Shown in pieces: positions 7,768-18,668 of a stretch of DNA of 37,191 nucleotides. The notes beneath the pieces are model-generated. The model saw nothing but the letters and a program-made list of their open reading frames with translations, made no database searches and was not told the origin of the DNA. The stretch's first letter is position 1. Each line of letters opens with the position of its first letter. The translations under genes and the position numbers were made by a program. Source of the DNA: a virus; the IMG/VR virus record IMGVR_UViG_3300032294_002469, positions 1 to 37,191 of that record. The stretch is one strand, 5' to 3'.

Positions 7768-8079
7768 TGATAAGATATACCATGTTCCACCAACAAATCT
7801 GAATTCAATACAAGCAAACTTGTCTGCAACGATTTCGTCGTACTCTTCATCAATTTTTCCAACATCGGGTCTTACAGTTATTTGAGTCATAGCTTTAACT
7901 GTTATATGGTCCGATGTTCTCGAATCTAAAACCACAAATGACCTTGGAACACCACGAATAATACAACAATCTTCCCCGTTTGTACGGTAATCTAATTCCG
8001 ACACCATAGTTACTTCAGAGGTTTCTATGGTGTGTCCGTTAATAATTCTTTTCGATGGTACTGTCTTAATTATTGCCAT
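7744..8079 (-). CDS. Unknown 111-residue protein, probable virion component
   Basis: Not recognised. The protein is short and beta-rich: TVPSKRIINGHTIETSEVTM, an SFVVLDSRTSDHITVKAMTQ stretch, and a closing ACIEFRFVGGTWYILSS, a pattern common in small phage tail or fibre-associated domains. No signal peptide or membrane segment. Its ATG overlaps the stop of the preceding 375-residue gene as TAATG on the minus strand, so it is probably translationally coupled and works with that protein. Its 3' end overlaps the DNA polymerase gene by 24 bases in convergent orientation, with no terminator between them. Confidence 0.6.
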   Translation of the reverse strand: MAIIKTVPSKRIINGHTIETSEVTMVSELDYRTNGEDCCIIRGVPRSFVVLDSRTSDHITVKAMTQITVRPDVGKIDEEYDEIVADKFACIEFRFVGGTWYILSSDGLKQS

Positions 8080-9206
8080 TATATTACATATATTTGACGA
8101 GGCATTGCTCTGAACTTCATTTGTTTATTTAGATTTTCGGCAATCAACGCCTCTCTCTCCATTACCTTTTCTGGTCTCATTCTAGTTAACCAACCTTCAG
8201 CACCTGTCAATTCCTCAATTAACTTCGATTTTTCATCTTTTGCTTCGGTTAGAAGACTTTGATAATCCATTGTAATTTCCGAGTCAGGCGTCTTCAAGTT
8301 ACCACTGTACTTTCCTCTAACTCTTGCTAAAGTTTCTTTACAGTATGCGGTAAACCATCTTCTTACCCATTGTTGTCCTGGCACATTCAAGTCTGTCCAT
8401 GTTAGTTCTTCAATAGGAACATCTGTAGGAAGTTTGATGATGTCAGGATTATTTTTCAAGCAATCGGCTCTACTATCAGGTTCAACATCATAATACCAAT
8501 ACCAAACGGCTTTACCTACGTATGCAGAATAGTTTGACCAGTTAAATCTTCCACCAGGAGTATTATATAAATGAATGAGTTTTTTTCCATCAGGAAGACC
8601 TGTTATTCTATATGTCAAGGAACCTCCTAAAATTCTACTGAGGATATTAGCTTCTTGCATTCTGATAAGATAATCAAAACCTGACATCATAAAGTAAGAA
8701 CCATTATTCCCCATTTGGGCATATCCTGCTTGGTTAGCACCTAAACCAATACCACCAAATCCGAATCCACCAATACCACCCAATCCAAATGCGCTAAACA
8801 ATTGGTCACTAAACCAAAGAAGTTCATTAACTTCTCTACCTGCAGGTATTTCATAAGTTTGTGTGTTAGCACTTAATATGAAATAATCTTTTTTAAGTAC
8901 CCAAGGACCCTCAGTTTGTAAACCAACAATTTTAGAATACGAGTAAGAGAACTGTTGTTCGAAATCCATGGTTCTAGTCACAAGTGCTCTTGCAACAGAC
9001 CTTTCGTTCATGTTCAAATTAACTAAGTTCACCCATTGAGAATCAATTAACCACTGTAAAATATATTCTTCATAATCACCGATGGCTAATTCCATCAATG
9101 AGTCTAACATCTCATCCTCTAACTCAACACTTCTAAGTGGAGCTCCGAGTTGATGTTTGATTCTTGTATATATTTTGGACCTTTCTGGTTCTGGTATTGC
9201 TGCCAT
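8079..9206 (-). CDS. Probable virion structural (neck/connector-type) protein
   Basis: 375 residues. The N-terminus reads YTRIKHQLGAPLRSVELEDE followed by a helix LMELAIGDYEEYI. Openings of the form 'rLG.P...vEL.d......A...y' recur in myovirus head-tail or neck proteins, as far as I recall from T4-like marine phages. Residues 141-170 are Gly-rich (GLGGIGGFGFGG), probably a flexible loop. The C-terminal third (about 300-375) is helical and charged and ends in MPRQIYVI. It has its own TATTTAT box five bases before the ATG. Beyond a likely virion role the exact T4 counterpart is not determined; a terminase or enzyme role is not suggested by any motif. Confidence 0.55.
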   Translation of the reverse strand: MAAIPEPERSKIYTRIKHQLGAPLRSVELEDEMLDSLMELAIGDYEEYILQWLIDSQWVNLVNLNMNERSVARALVTRTMDFEQQFSYSYSKIVGLQTEGPWVLKKDYFILSANTQTYEIPAGREVNELLWFSDQLFSAFGLGGIGGFGFGGIGLGANQAGYAQMGNNGSYFMMSGFDYLIRMQEANILSRILGGSLTYRITGLPDGKKLIHLYNTPGGRFNWSNYSAYVGKAVWYWYYDVEPDSRADCLKNNPDIIKLPTDVPIEELTWTDLNVPGQQWVRRWFTAYCKETLARVRGKYSGNLKTPDSEITMDYQSLLTEAKDEKSKLIEELTGAEGWLTRMRPEKVMEREALIAENLNKQMKFRAMPRQIYVI

Positions 9207-9224: not shown

Positions 9225-10763
9225 TTATTCTATTTCGTGAAGAAGTGAATTTAACTTAAATATATATTGGTTTTCGTTTTGTAGAGGATTGTTATTGAAG
9301 ATTAGTATCTTATTACTCTTTGGTTGAATAAAAATTAACCAATCCACGTTGTAAGGTTTAACATTACCTGTATCAAAAAGTTTTACCTTATCATCATCAA
9401 CAGTTGTTGTTGAATATGGTTTTACTTGTGCTGTGTAGGTTTCATCCCCTTTAGTGATTGTCATATCCACTCCCTTGAATGCATCTTCTTTTTGACCGTG
9501 ACCACCAATCTTTTCAACTTTTGCTTCTCCTTCAAAATAATCTTCAAGTTTTTTCTGAACGTTATCTTCAGATTTTTGACCTCTATCCCAAAGTTTTTTT
9601 AATACTTTAATGATGTTAATGAAGTCTTCGTTGTTCTTTGTGAATATATCTTTTTTGAAGTGGTTTAAGGCACTTATAAATCTTTCAACTTCTCTCGAGT
9701 TTCTATTTTCTTTACGACTGAAATCAAAAATTTTATCTTTTCTACCAATCTTTTCAATTTGTTTATTAACCGCTTTGACCAACAAACAAAATGCATTGAA
9801 ATTAGTATTAAGGTTATTTAATATTGACCTTCCTTCTTTTGATTCTACACCATAGAAACCAGACATTTCTTTCGTTGTTCCATCAACCCAAAATTGACTA
9901 AACACTTTTTTCAAAACGTCTGTCACACCATCTTGGTATATTCTTTTAACTTTTGAGTTATTGATTAAATCTTTGAAGAAAAGGATTTCTTTTGCATCAC
10001 AGAACTTAGCATCTGCGGATTCAGTAATTAATTTACCAAACTCGACAGATTCTATAAGTTTTGTTTTAGTTTTTAACTCATACATTTTTGTAACAAAATC
10101 CCAGTTTACAACTTTCCAAAAGTTAACGATGTATTCGTCTCTTTTGTTTCTATACTTCAAGTAATAAGCGTGTTCCCATAAATCTAACCCCAACAGAGGG
10201 AATCCACCTCCTTCGATGATATTCATCAAGGGGTTATCCTGATTTGGAGTCGACATTATTTTTAATGTATTTTTTGCGGTTAGAACTAACCATACCCATC
10301 CTGAACCGAACCTATCTTTTGCAACGTTGTCAAACTTTTTTTTGAATGCGGTAAAACTACCAAATTCTTTGACAATCTTTTTGTAAAGTTCTCCCTCGAG
10401 TTTTTTAGGTGTAGGGGTCAACATGTTCCAAAATAATGCGTGATTGAATGCACCACCAGCATTATTTCTTATTGACTTGTCGTAACGACTTATGTTTTTG
10501 ATGATTTGCTCTAATTCTAAATCCCCGTATTTTTTCTTTGATAAAGCATCATTTAATTTATCCACGTACCCTTTATAATGTTTGTTATAGTGAAAGTTCA
10601 TCGTTTCGGGGTCAATGAACTGTTTGAGGGCTGAGTAGGAATAAGGTAATTTCTCTATTCCAATTTTCTTCATTTCGGTAATCAACTGTTCTTTTTCTTT
10701 GTTAACGTGGTTTTCAAGTATTTGGTGTTCCAGTTGTTGTACCTTTTCTTTTATTTTCTTCAT
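9225..10763 (-). CDS. Mn-type superoxide dismutase fused to a nuclease-like C-terminal domain
   Basis: Residues about 38-229 are an Fe/Mn superoxide dismutase, which converts superoxide to hydrogen peroxide and oxygen. All four metal ligands are present: H58 (in FHYNKHYKGY), H108 (NNAGGAFNHALFW), D194 and H198 (LGLDLWEHAYYLKY). Gateway residues H62 and Y66 are also kept. Gly at the FeSOD Gln69 position together with Gln175 in STPNQDNPLM is the MnSOD arrangement. Residues 1-37 form a charged helix not present in SODs. Residues about 230-512 are extra: mostly helical, then KGVDMTI (D433) and YTAQVKPY (Q446, K448), a D...QxK pattern like Mrr/PD-(D/E)XK nucleases. The nuclease reading is an inference; the SOD is clear. 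It has its own promoter-like box and lies between an SNF2 gene and virion genes. Whether it is packaged or acts in the infected cell is unknown. Confidence 0.88.
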   Translation of the reverse strand: MKKIKEKVQQLEHQILENHVNKEKEQLITEMKKIGIEKLPYSYSALKQFIDPETMNFHYNKHYKGYVDKLNDALSKKKYGDLELEQIIKNISRYDKSIRNNAGGAFNHALFWNMLTPTPKKLEGELYKKIVKEFGSFTAFKKKFDNVAKDRFGSGWVWLVLTAKNTLKIMSTPNQDNPLMNIIEGGGFPLLGLDLWEHAYYLKYRNKRDEYIVNFWKVVNWDFVTKMYELKTKTKLIESVEFGKLITESADAKFCDAKEILFFKDLINNSKVKRIYQDGVTDVLKKVFSQFWVDGTTKEMSGFYGVESKEGRSILNNLNTNFNAFCLLVKAVNKQIEKIGRKDKIFDFSRKENRNSREVERFISALNHFKKDIFTKNNEDFINIIKVLKKLWDRGQKSEDNVQKKLEDYFEGEAKVEKIGGHGQKEDAFKGVDMTITKGDETYTAQVKPYSTTTVDDDKVKLFDTGNVKPYNVDWLIFIQPKSNKILIFNNNPLQNENQYIFKLNSLLHEIE

Positions 10764-10803: not shown

Positions 10804-12555
10804 TTAATGACGCATTTCATTAATTCTTTTTAGAATTTCTTCAGCAGCATCGGGACTGCTTTGGTTATCACCAAGTATGGTAGATATAACCTGTTTTTTA
10901 TTTGCAAGTATGTCATAGATGATTCCTTCGATTGTGTTTTCGAATATTGGATAATACACTAATACATTATTTTTTTGACCGTATCTATATGCTCGGTCCT
11001 CTGCTTGGGAATGGTCTGAAGGTAAAAATGATAAATCATTCATGATGACTGCCTCAGCGGATGTCAATGTTAATCCAACACCTGCAGCTTTAATATTCCC
11101 CACAAAAACTTTAACTTTTTCATTTTCTTGAAATTGGTCAACAGATAATTGTCTTTCGGCTTTTGACATTGACCCATCGAGTTTAACGGATGTTTTGCCA
11201 AAATGTTCACAAATCTTATTCAAAGAATCTGTGAAGTTACAGAATATGATAACTTTTTTATCTTGCTCAATTATATTTTCCGCTAACTCTATTGTTTGGG
11301 CAATTTTTTCGTCGGCAATAATTTGTCTAACTTTAGTGAGTTTTGTAAATTGTACCGTAAGAGATTTAGATTCTTCAGGATTTTTTTCATACCAATTATA
11401 GTAGTCACCCATAACCTCTTCGTATAACTTTGATTTTAATCTCAAGTATACTGGTGTTATGATTTTATCAGGTAAATCCAAAACATCTTCTTTTAATCTT
11501 CTGAGTGTCAACCCTAATGTTCTGTCTCTCAATTCTTCCAAATTGGATGCACCCATAACGTTCCACACTTTTCTTGACCCAACTTTGAATTGGTATCCTT
11601 GACAGTATCTTATAACATATGCCATCCAATTTTTTGCTACGGGGGAGTCAATCAAACTTAAAAGATTGAAGTAATCAATTGGTCTTGAAGTCATTGGTGT
11701 ACCAGTTAACAACCATAATCTATCAACCTTTTTAACAAAGTCGTTAATTAGTTTTGTTCTTTGGGCTTGTGCGTTTTTAATATAGTGTGCTTCATCAATT
11801 ACAACCAAGTCAAAATTTGCACCGAGAATTTGTGATTCATCTTTTTTCTTTGGGTCGTGAAAGTTTTTTATGATATCATAATTTACAATCACGAAATCGT
11901 GGTCAGTTGAAAAGTTTTTACCTTCAGAAATATAAACAGGTCGGTCGGAATAATTTTCAATCTCTCTTTTCCAGTTTATTTTCAGAGTTGCGGGACAAAT
12001 GATTAATATTTTTTTCGCACCTGTTTCAAGAGCCGCAATAATAGTTGAAGTTGTTTTACCCAATCCCATATCGTCAGCCAATATGAATTTTTTATTTTCA
12101 ACTAATTTTTGTATTGCTTCTTTTTGATGTGATAGTGGAGGACGTTTAGAATATTTTTCATAATCTATAACAACATCTTTGACTGTATTGTCTTTGATTA
12201 TTGCTGCCTTCGGTAACCAAAAATCATGAAACTCTTGGTTCTCAGTTATCTTACCCCAAATATGATATGCCTTTTCCTTATCAGCCAAGAGTTTTTCGAC
12301 CCAAACCTTCTCAGGAATTACTGTCATTAATTTGTCGTCCGCTAATTTTTGAGCAAAATATGCATCAAGTATAACCCATTTCTTCGCAACCTTTGGTTGT
12401 TTATCGTGGTTATTTATAATGTATTCAGATTGACTTCTTGTAGGGTAAAACTTTCTATTAAGTTGTGATTTTCTTTTGAGCTCTAATATATAATTGTTTG
12501 CTCCCTCATACTCCTCCAACAATGTCAACGCCTTAGACTCTAAACTGATTTCCAT
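10804..12555 (-). CDS. SNF2-family DNA helicase/translocase
   Basis: Superfamily 2 ATPase of the SNF2 type, 583 residues. Motifs in order: Q-like LSHQKEAIQKL (141-151), Walker A DDMGLGKTTS (K167), Ia ILIICPATLK, DEAH at 254-257 in VVIDEAHYIKN, III LLTGTPMTSR (283-291), IV VIIFCNF, V GNIKAAGVGLTLTSA, and VI QAEDRAYRYGQ (517-527). Both RecA-like lobes are complete. These proteins translocate on duplex DNA or remodel protein-DNA complexes and forks; in T4 the comparable job (branch migration, replication restart) belongs to UvsW, a different SF2 helicase. The N-terminal 135 residues match nothing I recognise. It follows the SET gene by 12 bases, so the two are probably one transcript. Confidence 0.92.
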   Translation of the reverse strand: MEISLESKALTLLEEYEGANNYILELKRKSQLNRKFYPTRSQSEYIINNHDKQPKVAKKWVILDAYFAQKLADDKLMTVIPEKVWVEKLLADKEKAYHIWGKITENQEFHDFWLPKAAIIKDNTVKDVVIDYEKYSKRPPLSHQKEAIQKLVENKKFILADDMGLGKTTSTIIAALETGAKKILIICPATLKINWKREIENYSDRPVYISEGKNFSTDHDFVIVNYDIIKNFHDPKKKDESQILGANFDLVVIDEAHYIKNAQAQRTKLINDFVKKVDRLWLLTGTPMTSRPIDYFNLLSLIDSPVAKNWMAYVIRYCQGYQFKVGSRKVWNVMGASNLEELRDRTLGLTLRRLKEDVLDLPDKIITPVYLRLKSKLYEEVMGDYYNWYEKNPEESKSLTVQFTKLTKVRQIIADEKIAQTIELAENIIEQDKKVIIFCNFTDSLNKICEHFGKTSVKLDGSMSKAERQLSVDQFQENEKVKVFVGNIKAAGVGLTLTSAEAVIMNDLSFLPSDHSQAEDRAYRYGQKNNVLVYYPIFENTIEGIIYDILANKKQVISTILGDNQSSPDAAEEILKRINEMRH

Positions 12556-15440: not shown

Positions 15441-18400
15441 ATGGCAACAGCACAAGTTAATCAAAAAGTATTTGTATCCCCAGGAGTTTATACATCTGAA
15501 ACAGACCTTTCGTTTGTGGCTCAGAGCGTGGGTGTTACAACCTTAGGTTTAGTTGGTGAGACTATAAAGGGTCCCGCTTTCGAACCTGTCTTTATAACAA
15601 ACTATGACGAATTTCAAGCCTACTTCGGTGGTACTGAACCTGTAAAGTTTGTGAATACACAAATTCCACAATATGAAGCTGCGTATATCGCAAAGTCTTA
15701 CTTACAACAATCTAACCAATTGTTTGTGACAAGGATTTTAGGTCTTTCAGGTTATGATGCGGGTCCATCGTGGAGTATTAGAACGACCGCAAACGTTGAC
15801 CCAACAACAATCGGTATCGAGGGTGTTGGTCAATCATTTACTGCAAATTTCAGTGGTAACTCATCAGGAGACACTTTTTTATTCACGTCTTCAAGTGCAG
15901 TGTTTAACGATTTTATATCACCAAATTTATATGTACAATATAGAATGAGTGATGGAAGTACGTCTAACCTATTTGCGGACTTTTCATTTAACATCGGTAA
16001 TGTTGCGGACAATCCGTCATTATCTGCTACGACAATTTCATTTTACGGGGCAATACCTGATACAGATTATTGGCCGTTGGTAACACAATATAGTAATCAA
16101 ATTAATGAATATCTTTCTGATACAAACAATTTGGAAACAAACGATTTATCTTCAAACGATAATGACGCTTGGTATTACGCTAATTTTGATAACTACTCAG
16201 GAAACTCTTACTCAGGTTATTCTTTCTATTATTCTGTGACAAACATTGTTACAGGGTCTACAGGAAATTATACAGGAACTATTACAGGTAGTGTGTATGA
16301 ATTCTCTGGTAGTGCATATTCTGAATTCAATAATATGGTAATTGCAACTCTTCGTTCAAGAGGTATTTCTCTTTACGCGAACAGTTCTGATAGTGATTCT
16401 CACGGTCCGATATATCAAGTTAATTCAGGTGGTACTATTGCTGGTTTAAGTGCTGTTACCATGGTTTGTAGTGGTGAGTATTCAGGTGTAACTCAATCAC
16501 CTTATGCAACTTTCTTATTATCGGGTGTAACTAAAGATAATGACGCGTTTCAGTTCGAAACATCTTTAGCTCCAAGTGATTCAAAATATATTACTAAAGT
16601 ATTAGGTGTTGACAATTTTGGTAAATCAAGATTTGAAACTCCTCTTTTTGTTGAAGAAGTATATCCAGGAACTTTGAATTTTGCATATAACCAAGGTTAT
16701 ATCAAAGGTCTTAATTGTCAATTGGTTGGTTTACCAAGTGCTAGAAGTAGAAGTGCTTCGTCAATTGCTTGGAATTTAGAAAGATATCAATCACCTGAGA
16801 CACCATTTTTGGTTTCAGAGTTAAGAGGAAATAAAGTTTATAGATTATTCAAGTTTATCTCAATATCTGATGGTGATTCTGCAAATGTTGAAATCAAAGT
16901 TTCAATTGCTAACTTATCTTTCAATAGTATGAGTTTCGACGTATTAGTTAGAAACTTCTTCGATACTGATGCTAATCCTGTGGTTATTGAAAAATTCACT
17001 AACTGTAACATGGACCCAGCTTCGAACAACTTCGTCGCTAAAAAGATTGGTAGTTCAAACGGTGAGTTTGCTTTACTTTCAAAATACATTATGATTGAGT
17101 TAGCTGATGAGGCACCAATAGATGCAATACCTTGTGGTTTCTACGGTTACACACAAAGAGAGTATGCGTCTCCATTGAACCCATCTCCTTACCCTAAATT
17201 CAAAACAAAATATTATTTCCCTGGTGAAGTTATTGCTAACCCACCATTCAACAGTCCTTTCGGTGGTAATAATGCCGTAGAAAGTCCTGGTGATGTTGTT
17301 AGAAGAAGTTACTTAGGATTTTCAACACAATTTGGAATCGATGAGTCATTCTTAACTTATAAAGGAAAACAAAATCCACAAGCGGGTTGGGAACTTGCAA
17401 CAGATTCTCTACCATGGAATTATCTTTCGAAAGGTTTCCATATGGACTCAGGTGCAACGGTTGTAACAATCGGAAACATCTATGATACAAGTGGACAAAC
17501 AGCATTCGAGTGTGGAGTGGCAGATTTTAGATTTGACCCTGAAACACAAGAAAATCCTTACTACTTTATCTATTCAAGAAAATTCACAGTATGTTTTGCT
17601 GGCGGATTCGATGGATGGGATATCTATGAAGAGTCAAGAACTAACACGGATAGATTCCAATTAGGAGCTTCTGGATTCCTTGCAGGTGCTTTCCCTTCTC
17701 CAAGATATCCTAACGCAACAGGTGATGGTATGTTCAAGAGAATTACTGTTCAAAACAATACCGTAGACTTTGCTAATACTGACTATTACGCTTATTTACT
17801 TGGTATTTTAACATTTGCTAATCCTGAAGCTACGAACATCAACGTATTTGCAACTGCAAGTATTGATTATGTATACAATTCAAATCTTTGTGAAGAGGCT
17901 ATTGATATGGTTCAATTCCAAAGAGCTGATTCGGTTTACATCGTGACTACACCTGACTACAATATGTTCTTACCAGATTCAACAGATACTCAAGCAATTA
18001 TTTATCCTCAAGAAGCGGTAGATAACTTAGATAACACAGGTATCGATTCAAACTACACAGCAACATATTATCCTTGGATATTAACAAGAGATACTGTTAA
18101 TAACACACAAATTTATTTACCAGCAACTGGTGAGGTTTGTAGAAACTTAGCTTTAACAGATAACATCGCATTCCCTTGGTTCGCATCAGCGGGTTACACA
18201 AGAGGTCTTGTTAATTCAATCAAAGCGAGAGTTAAGTTGACTCAAGAAGATAGAGACACACTTTATCAAGGTAGAATCAACCCTATTGCAACTTTCTCTG
18301 ATGTTGGAACTGTAATTTGGGGTAATAAGACTTTACAAGTTGCAGATACAGCACTTAACAGACTTAATGTTAGAAGATTGTTACTTCAAGCTCGTAAGTT

Positions 18401-18668
18401 AATTTCAGCAGTAGCTGTAAGATTAATCTTCGAACAAAACGACCAAGTTGTAAGACAACAATTCTTAGATAGTGTTAATCCAATTTTGGATAGTATTAGA
18501 AGAGATAGAGGTCTTTATGATTTCCGTGTAACAGTTTCTTCAACACCTGAAGACTTAGACAGAAATACATTAACAGGTAAAATTTATCTTAAACCAACGA
18601 AGGCTCTTGAATTTATTGATATTGAATTCTTTATCACACCAACAGGAGCATCATTCGAAAATATCTAA
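15441..18668 (+). CDS. gp18: Contractile tail sheath protein (gp18-like), unusually large
   Basis: The sheath polymer that contracts to drive the tail tube through the host envelope. The N-terminus shows the family opening FVSPGVYTSETDLSFVAQS with GLVGETIKGPAFEPVFI, NYDEFQAYFGG and AAYIAKSYLQQSNQLFVTRI. The C-terminus has the conserved core: FIDIEFFITPTG at the end, preceded by LIFEQNDQVVRQQFLDSVNP, and FRVTVSSTPEDLD. At 1075 residues it is far longer than T4 gp18 (659); the extra length lies in the middle (roughly residues 110-640), which is Ser/Gly/Tyr-rich and beta-like, as expected for surface-exposed insertion domains. It has its own promoter box and a strong terminator directly after the stop, consistent with very high expression. 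Confidence 0.95.
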   Translation: MATAQVNQKVFVSPGVYTSETDLSFVAQSVGVTTLGLVGETIKGPAFEPVFITNYDEFQAYFGGTEPVKFVNTQIPQYEAAYIAKSYLQQSNQLFVTRILGLSGYDAGPSWSIRTTANVDPTTIGIEGVGQSFTANFSGNSSGDTFLFTSSSAVFNDFISPNLYVQYRMSDGSTSNLFADFSFNIGNVADNPSLSATTISFYGAIPDTDYWPLVTQYSNQINEYLSDTNNLETNDLSSNDNDAWYYANFDNYSGNSYSGYSFYYSVTNIVTGSTGNYTGTITGSVYEFSGSAYSEFNNMVIATLRSRGISLYANSSDSDSHGPIYQVNSGGTIAGLSAVTMVCSGEYSGVTQSPYATFLLSGVTKDNDAFQFETSLAPSDSKYITKVLGVDNFGKSRFETPLFVEEVYPGTLNFAYNQGYIKGLNCQLVGLPSARSRSASSIAWNLERYQSPETPFLVSELRGNKVYRLFKFISISDGDSANVEIKVSIANLSFNSMSFDVLVRNFFDTDANPVVIEKFTNCNMDPASNNFVAKKIGSSNGEFALLSKYIMIELADEAPIDAIPCGFYGYTQREYASPLNPSPYPKFKTKYYFPGEVIANPPFNSPFGGNNAVESPGDVVRRSYLGFSTQFGIDESFLTYKGKQNPQAGWELATDSLPWNYLSKGFHMDSGATVVTIGNIYDTSGQTAFECGVADFRFDPETQENPYYFIYSRKFTVCFAGGFDGWDIYEESRTNTDRFQLGASGFLAGAFPSPRYPNATGDGMFKRITVQNNTVDFANTDYYAYLLGILTFANPEATNINVFATASIDYVYNSNLCEEAIDMVQFQRADSVYIVTTPDYNMFLPDSTDTQAIIYPQEAVDNLDNTGIDSNYTATYYPWILTRDTVNNTQIYLPATGEVCRNLALTDNIAFPWFASAGYTRGLVNSIKARVKLTQEDRDTLYQGRINPIATFSDVGTVIWGNKTLQVADTALNRLNVRRLLLQARKLISAVAVRLIFEQNDQVVRQQFLDSVNPILDSIRRDRGLYDFRVTVSSTPEDLDRNTLTGKIYLKPTKALEFIDIEFFITPTGASFENI

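Follow-up and report, generated by a model that had tools for sequence, protein, structure and literature searches.

Results

The window, that is, the whole stretch of DNA analyzed here, is a virus record of 37,191 nucleotides (IMGVR_UViG_3300032294_002469), a fragment with relatives of about 320 kb. On its minus strand, an open reading frame running from 10763 to 9225 starts with ATG and encodes 512 amino acids without an internal stop. A preliminary description, which gave no strand, had recognized in it a superoxide dismutase (SOD) fused to a nuclease-like domain, and this fusion is real, as full-length relatives recur in scores of independent contigs. The product reads as a putative precursor of an SOD and a PD-(D/E)XK nuclease. 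Its parts, all on the minus strand, are an N-terminal leader that is predicted to be helical (residues 1 to 30; 10674 to 10763), an Mn-type SOD with a C-terminal tail (residues 31 to 238; 10050 to 10673), a spacer (residues 239 to 248; 10020 to 10049), a helical domain with a GRS-x-LNxLNTN motif, assigned to no known fold (residues 254 to 396; 9576 to 10004), and the predicted nuclease core (residues 397 to 512; 9228 to 9575). A PHROGs search with the fusion frame returned no match. An SNF2-type helicase gene (10804 to 12555, minus strand) lies upstream, and a head-tail adaptor gene (phrog_211; 8079 to 9206, minus strand) lies downstream.

A protein query matched at least 595 stretches in IMG/VR, and the best 80 of them were retained. 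The fusion is essentially full length in 79 of these (residues 1 to 512, or from residue 9 or 10), while the remaining one, L061, runs off its contig; identity among the best 80 is 71 to 90%, on contigs of up to 321 kb. More distant copies were added with a degenerate DNA pattern on the nuclease motif, and the alignment set holds 96 distinct fusions with identity down to 47%. The surroundings are just as stable, with the helicase upstream in 139 of the 140 loci that have room for it and the adaptor downstream in 166 of 166. The number of distinct proteins and the constant synteny rule out a chance or misassembled fusion.

Pfam places Sod_Fe_N at residues 36 to 115 (6e-22) and Sod_Fe_C at residues 123 to 226 (1.3e-39), and finds no match C-terminal of them; the domain, at about residues 36 to 226, is a complete Mn-type member of the Fe/Mn SOD family. 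The four metal ligands, three His and one Asp (H58, H108, D194, and H198), and the Mn-type second-shell Gln (Q175) are those named in the preliminary description, and all are invariant in the 96 fusions, as is G104, the Gly at the Fe-type Gln position. The NNAGG and NQDNP motifs align with those of SODs, and their Gly and Gln, respectively, form the Mn-type pattern of the family. Among solved structures, the best named matches are Mn-SODs, and the top match overall is 6gsc (4.7e-59). Domains, ligands, and Q175 together support an Mn-type Fe/Mn SOD, for which dismutase activity is predicted.

The closest cellular SODs among those sampled are mostly from Bacteroidota and are 47 to 59% identical. 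In the SOD tree, the phage SODs stand apart from the sampled bacterial SODs (support 100/99), and an SOD encoded by a split form of the gene, described below, sits on a long branch. A bacterial origin of the whole fusion was rejected, as the 31 bacterial SOD frames examined (222 to 310 amino acids when counted from their first Met) include no fusion and the C-terminal half has no relative in genome_contigs. The Bacteroidota affinity does make the SOD look like a captured metabolic gene, and freshwater phages often carry reactive oxygen species (ROS) defense genes, SODs being counted among them, that have been read as host protecting (PMC6802176). Both points favor an uncut bifunctional enzyme that would act in the cytoplasm during infection, where its auxiliary SOD would protect the infected cell or the phage DNA from superoxide and its nuclease would serve host DNA breakdown or recombination, with the fusion doing nothing more than fixing the stoichiometry. 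We consider this unlikely, since it leaves unexplained why phi-x-E sites with a variable x are conserved at the domain borders, why the middle site is lost where the genes are split, and why relatives of the nuclease lie in a head gene cluster.

With a pLDDT of 69.5, the full-length AF2 model is poor, probably owing to an alignment of near relatives only, and we therefore claim no domain arrangement. Residues 228 to 512 were modeled with a mean pLDDT of 81.9. The check that had been proposed for this half, comparison of a predicted structure with known folds, came out in favor of a nuclease: with Foldseek and VIA-align, PD-(D/E)XK enzymes rank on top, namely, Hjc, SPARDA, I-Ssp6803I, NhoI, HhaI, RecU, and DpnI. 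The match to Hjc has a Z score of 8.3 over 99 residues at 3.2 Å; Z scores of about 8 are modest, but the leading matches all belong to one superfamily and the catalytic residues are invariant. These residues, E399 (9567 to 9569), D433 (9465 to 9467), Q446 (9426 to 9428), and K448 (9420 to 9422), all on the minus strand, are unchanged in an alignment of the 96 fusions with 16 other relatives. The last three had been named in the preliminary description and were part of the degenerate search pattern, so that their invariance is partly built in for the loci found by that pattern; E399, which had gone unnamed, was not part of it, and the loci found by the protein query, without the nuclease pattern, agree on D433, Q446, and K448. 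Fold model and invariant E/D/QxK residues thus support a predicted PD-(D/E)XK nuclease. As for the Mrr subfamily to which it had been likened, neither Pfam nor NCBIfam yields a match by that name for the C-terminal half, and no PADLOC model matches it. Gln in place of Asp or Glu at the (D/E)xK position occurs in Mrr-type enzymes.

The near-constant helicase gene upstream raises the idea that the SNF2 helicase and the nuclease work jointly on DNA, in joint resolution or in an antiplasmid or antiphage role comparable to that of ZorD-type helicase/Mrr proteins, with the SOD protecting the machine or its metal site. The helicase does score against the ZorD, DpdE, and DrmD models, and the nuclease fold does resemble Hjc, RecU, and I-Ssp6803I. 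However, the SNF2 scores are generic, the nuclease finds no counterpart among the PADLOC models, and its relatives at head genes come without a helicase; moreover, the adaptor is equally constant, so the helicase does not stand out by synteny. We regard such a pair as quite improbable.

Three [LIVM]-x-E sites that had been missed previously flank the SOD and sit at the domain borders: LITE30/M, LIE238/S, and LITE248/S, where the slash marks the predicted cut. E30 is kept in 96 of 96 fusions, with I, L, or V (V in a few) always at P3 and T, N, A, S, E, or Q at P2; E238 is likewise kept in 96 of 96 (P3, L, V, or I; P2 of eight kinds), and E248 is kept in 95 of 96 (P3, L, I, or M). Across the three sites, six to eight different residues occur at P2. 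The spacer between the last two has a consensus of 0.41, versus 0.90 for the SOD, and residues 240 to 245 show the lowest conservation anywhere in the chain. The T4 prohead protease gp21 cleaves after L/I-X-E (PMC9026906), and the gp23-type leader of the related phages reads HLINE/A directly before the conserved capsid fold; as motifs, the three candidate sites match both the gp21 pattern and this capsid protein site of the phages themselves, LINE/A. Conserved Glu residues show the phi-x-E pattern in 3 of 10 cases in the fusion but in 1 of 93 in seven neighboring proteins (Fisher P = 0.0026), which is support rather than proof, since both the definition and the test came after the first view of the sites, and the L/I-x-E motif is short. 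The 30-residue leader, a helix at residues 2 to 33 in the low-confidence full-length model, does not, on visual comparison, clearly resemble either the same phages' RLTESDL-type leaders or the 10-residue T4 capsid-targeting sequence (CTS).

At two loci, L338 and L382, two neighboring genes, one for the SOD and one for the nuclease, take the place of the fusion, and a 272-codon frame of these loci is present in three further contigs. The leaders of these split genes end in NIFE/A and VLNE/E, and the split SOD gene ends with the SOD tail, without the E238 site. Leaders also precede the nuclease in its stand-alone relatives (for example, MKITISEGQYNILSE/); the more distant ones in other phages (L400:1629-2585, L360:2234-3223, and L408:2918-3907) begin with leaders such as MKINISEGQYSVLSE/. 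The latter adjoin a prohead protease gene and core or capsid genes; the one in L400 is flanked by the genes for the prohead protease (phrog_207) on one side and the major capsid protein (phrog_138) on the other. The split halves, the nuclease without an SOD, and the protease-type sites around the SOD make the fusion look like a precursor for cutting. A coupling of redox state to the nuclease, which had been suggested earlier, finds no support; with the two halves encoded by separate genes in one clade and the nuclease also occurring alone, we dropped it as a leading idea.

The position of the fusion gene between DNA and head-tail genes, the stand-alone nuclease relatives in the core gene cluster, and the Hjc- and RecU-like structure matches would also suit a head or neck assembly factor in which catalysis is secondary and the nuclease, in a resolvase role, helps to process DNA for packaging or ejection and is cut off at maturation. 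A search of related genomes for the T4 EndoVII family was silent, as was its control. An assembly role does not explain the invariant SOD active site, and we think it more improbable still than a helicase-nuclease pair.

Some further observations concern nuclease relatives and their neighbors. The 735-kb phage LR756501 encodes a stand-alone relative of 290 amino acids (L082:4998-5870) that is 27 to 28% identical and keeps the E/D/QxK residues; it has no clear leader, and a query with it retrieved nothing further in viral_contigs or phage records. Weak relatives with possible leaders occur at G002:176194-177465 (5.7e-8), where leader-type proteins adjoin, and at G001:178481-179848 (3e-4). At L338:6191-7881, a tandem array of five small paralogous genes (MKVKVTE[ED]KLYP[VL]FKKFMETQFK...) lies immediately upstream of the split SOD gene.

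A gp21-type protease (PF03420) was found in five of seven related records, above the cutoff in four, while two partial records were silent. A gp23-type capsid protein (PF07068) is encoded in fusion-carrying related genomes, ribosomal protein S21 (PF01165; 1.7e-10) lies beside head genes in the one related genome checked for it, and a thymidylate synthase family was also found. Judged by gene content, the fusion phages fit the bS21-encoding, T4-like freshwater phages of about 320 kb with predicted Bacteroidota hosts. In the window itself, positions 15441 to 18668 encode an unusually long tail sheath protein (1,075 amino acids) that matches sheath proteins only in its C-terminal quarter.

Two related genomes also encode many small proteins with recurring N-terminal leaders, 22 of them in G001 (the L071 genome of 321,283 bp; 197 to 217 kb, loci L184 and L185) and 11 in G002 (the L006 genome); one of these proteins is a glucosaminidase (PF01832). 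The leaders end in or carry phi-x-E, as in MSKKIVRLTESDLIRLVKRVIKE/Q, MKYIITESQYNFLLE/Q, MNLNENISRVKELMG, and KIRHIQEANIRLEKRLLKE/D. The pattern [LIV][LIVM]xE[QASGND] falls within residues 5 to 40 in 12.7% (G001) and 9.8% (G002) of frames, versus 3 to 6% further in. By their leaders, these proteins seem to form a large group of cargo targeted to the capsid.

Discussion

Our results lead us to propose that the fusion is a capsid-targeted polyprotein of T4-like Bacteroidota jumbo phages that is cut in the prohead into an SOD and a nuclease, both of which are delivered to the host; we give this reading a probability of about 0.6. The precursor would enter the prohead as a single chain, and the phage's own gp21-type protease would then cut after phi-x-E at E30, E238, and E248, removing the leader and the 10-residue spacer and freeing an Mn-type SOD (residues ~31 to 238) and a PD-(D/E)XK nuclease (residues ~249 to 512). 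Both enzymes would stay in the head and be ejected with the DNA, as are the T4 internal proteins and Alt. Once injected, the nuclease may attack host or rival DNA and thereby aid the takeover of the next cell, candidate targets being the chromosome of the host, DNA of rival phages or plasmids, and branched DNA, while the SOD may reduce superoxide levels in the virion itself or during early infection. A role in the virion or in host takeover had been among the earlier suggestions, and it is the direction that the evidence favors. In T4, a leader of 10 residues suffices for packaging, and the head can be made to carry and deliver foreign enzymes, among them a nuclease (PMC9026906). The odds seem about even that the full picture holds, namely, a polyprotein cut inside the capsid into two injected enzymes, an SOD borne by phage virions, and membership of this polyprotein in a larger set of capsid-targeted cargo in Bacteroidota jumbo phages.

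If this is true, an antioxidant enzyme and a nuclease enter the cell side by side as these phages infect it, and a possible part played by superoxide in the first minutes of phage infection becomes directly testable. The fusion would then also illustrate how a capsid protease can process a polyprotein for the sake of cargo rather than structure, and a leader ending in phi-x-E would provide a sequence rule with which to list candidate injected effectors of abundant uncultured lake phages.

Relation to known systems

The preliminary description knew of no protein with this architecture. Nor did the open-licence papers searched yield a description of an SOD-nuclease fusion, of protease sites in it, or of an SOD in phage virions, but copies are present by the score in IMG/VR, and BFVD contains A0A6J5L953, a 501-residue "superoxide dismutase" of an uncultured Caudovirales phage. 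This record is the best predicted-virus match of the nuclease half (28% identical; TMq, 0.78) and apparently has the same two parts, although it is named only for the SOD. Both protein families are already known, and their combination seems to have at least one counterpart among database records. The nuclease core has, by prediction, the same fold as archaeal Hjc, I-Ssp6803I, the SPARDA effector, and NhoI (Z about 8 over ~100 residues) but is 9 to 15% identical to them, has an extra helical domain, and carries Q-x-K for D/E-x-K. Stand-alone SODs of the same Fe/Mn family are encoded by Vibrio phage 2.275.O and the Pseudomonas phages MIJ3 and Callisto, and their match, at ~29% identity, covers the SOD part only.

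The bS21-encoding Bacteroidetes phages (PMC9723584) are alike in having bS21 near head genes, in genome size, and in their freshwater and Bacteroidota signs; the text describing them does not mention superoxide or dismutase. The chlorovirus PBCV-1 packages its late-expressed Cu/Zn SOD (A245R) in the virion (PMC7019647), as we propose for the fusion SOD, but it is a eukaryotic virus whose SOD belongs to an unrelated family and has no known nuclease fusion. A parallel in mechanism is offered by the T4 internal proteins IPI to IPIII and Alt, which are capsid targeted, trimmed by gp21, and ejected. They share with the fusion a leader ending in L/I-x-E, and the genomes related to the window encode a T4-type protease and capsid protein as well; Alt, moreover, is trimmed at its C terminus too and thus at both ends (PMC9026906), as the fusion precursor would be. 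The fusion, whose place in virions we infer, differs from them in its longer leader, which has no clear sequence similarity to theirs, in its internal double site, and in carrying two enzymes per precursor, with an SOD and a predicted PD-(D/E)XK nuclease as the cargo.
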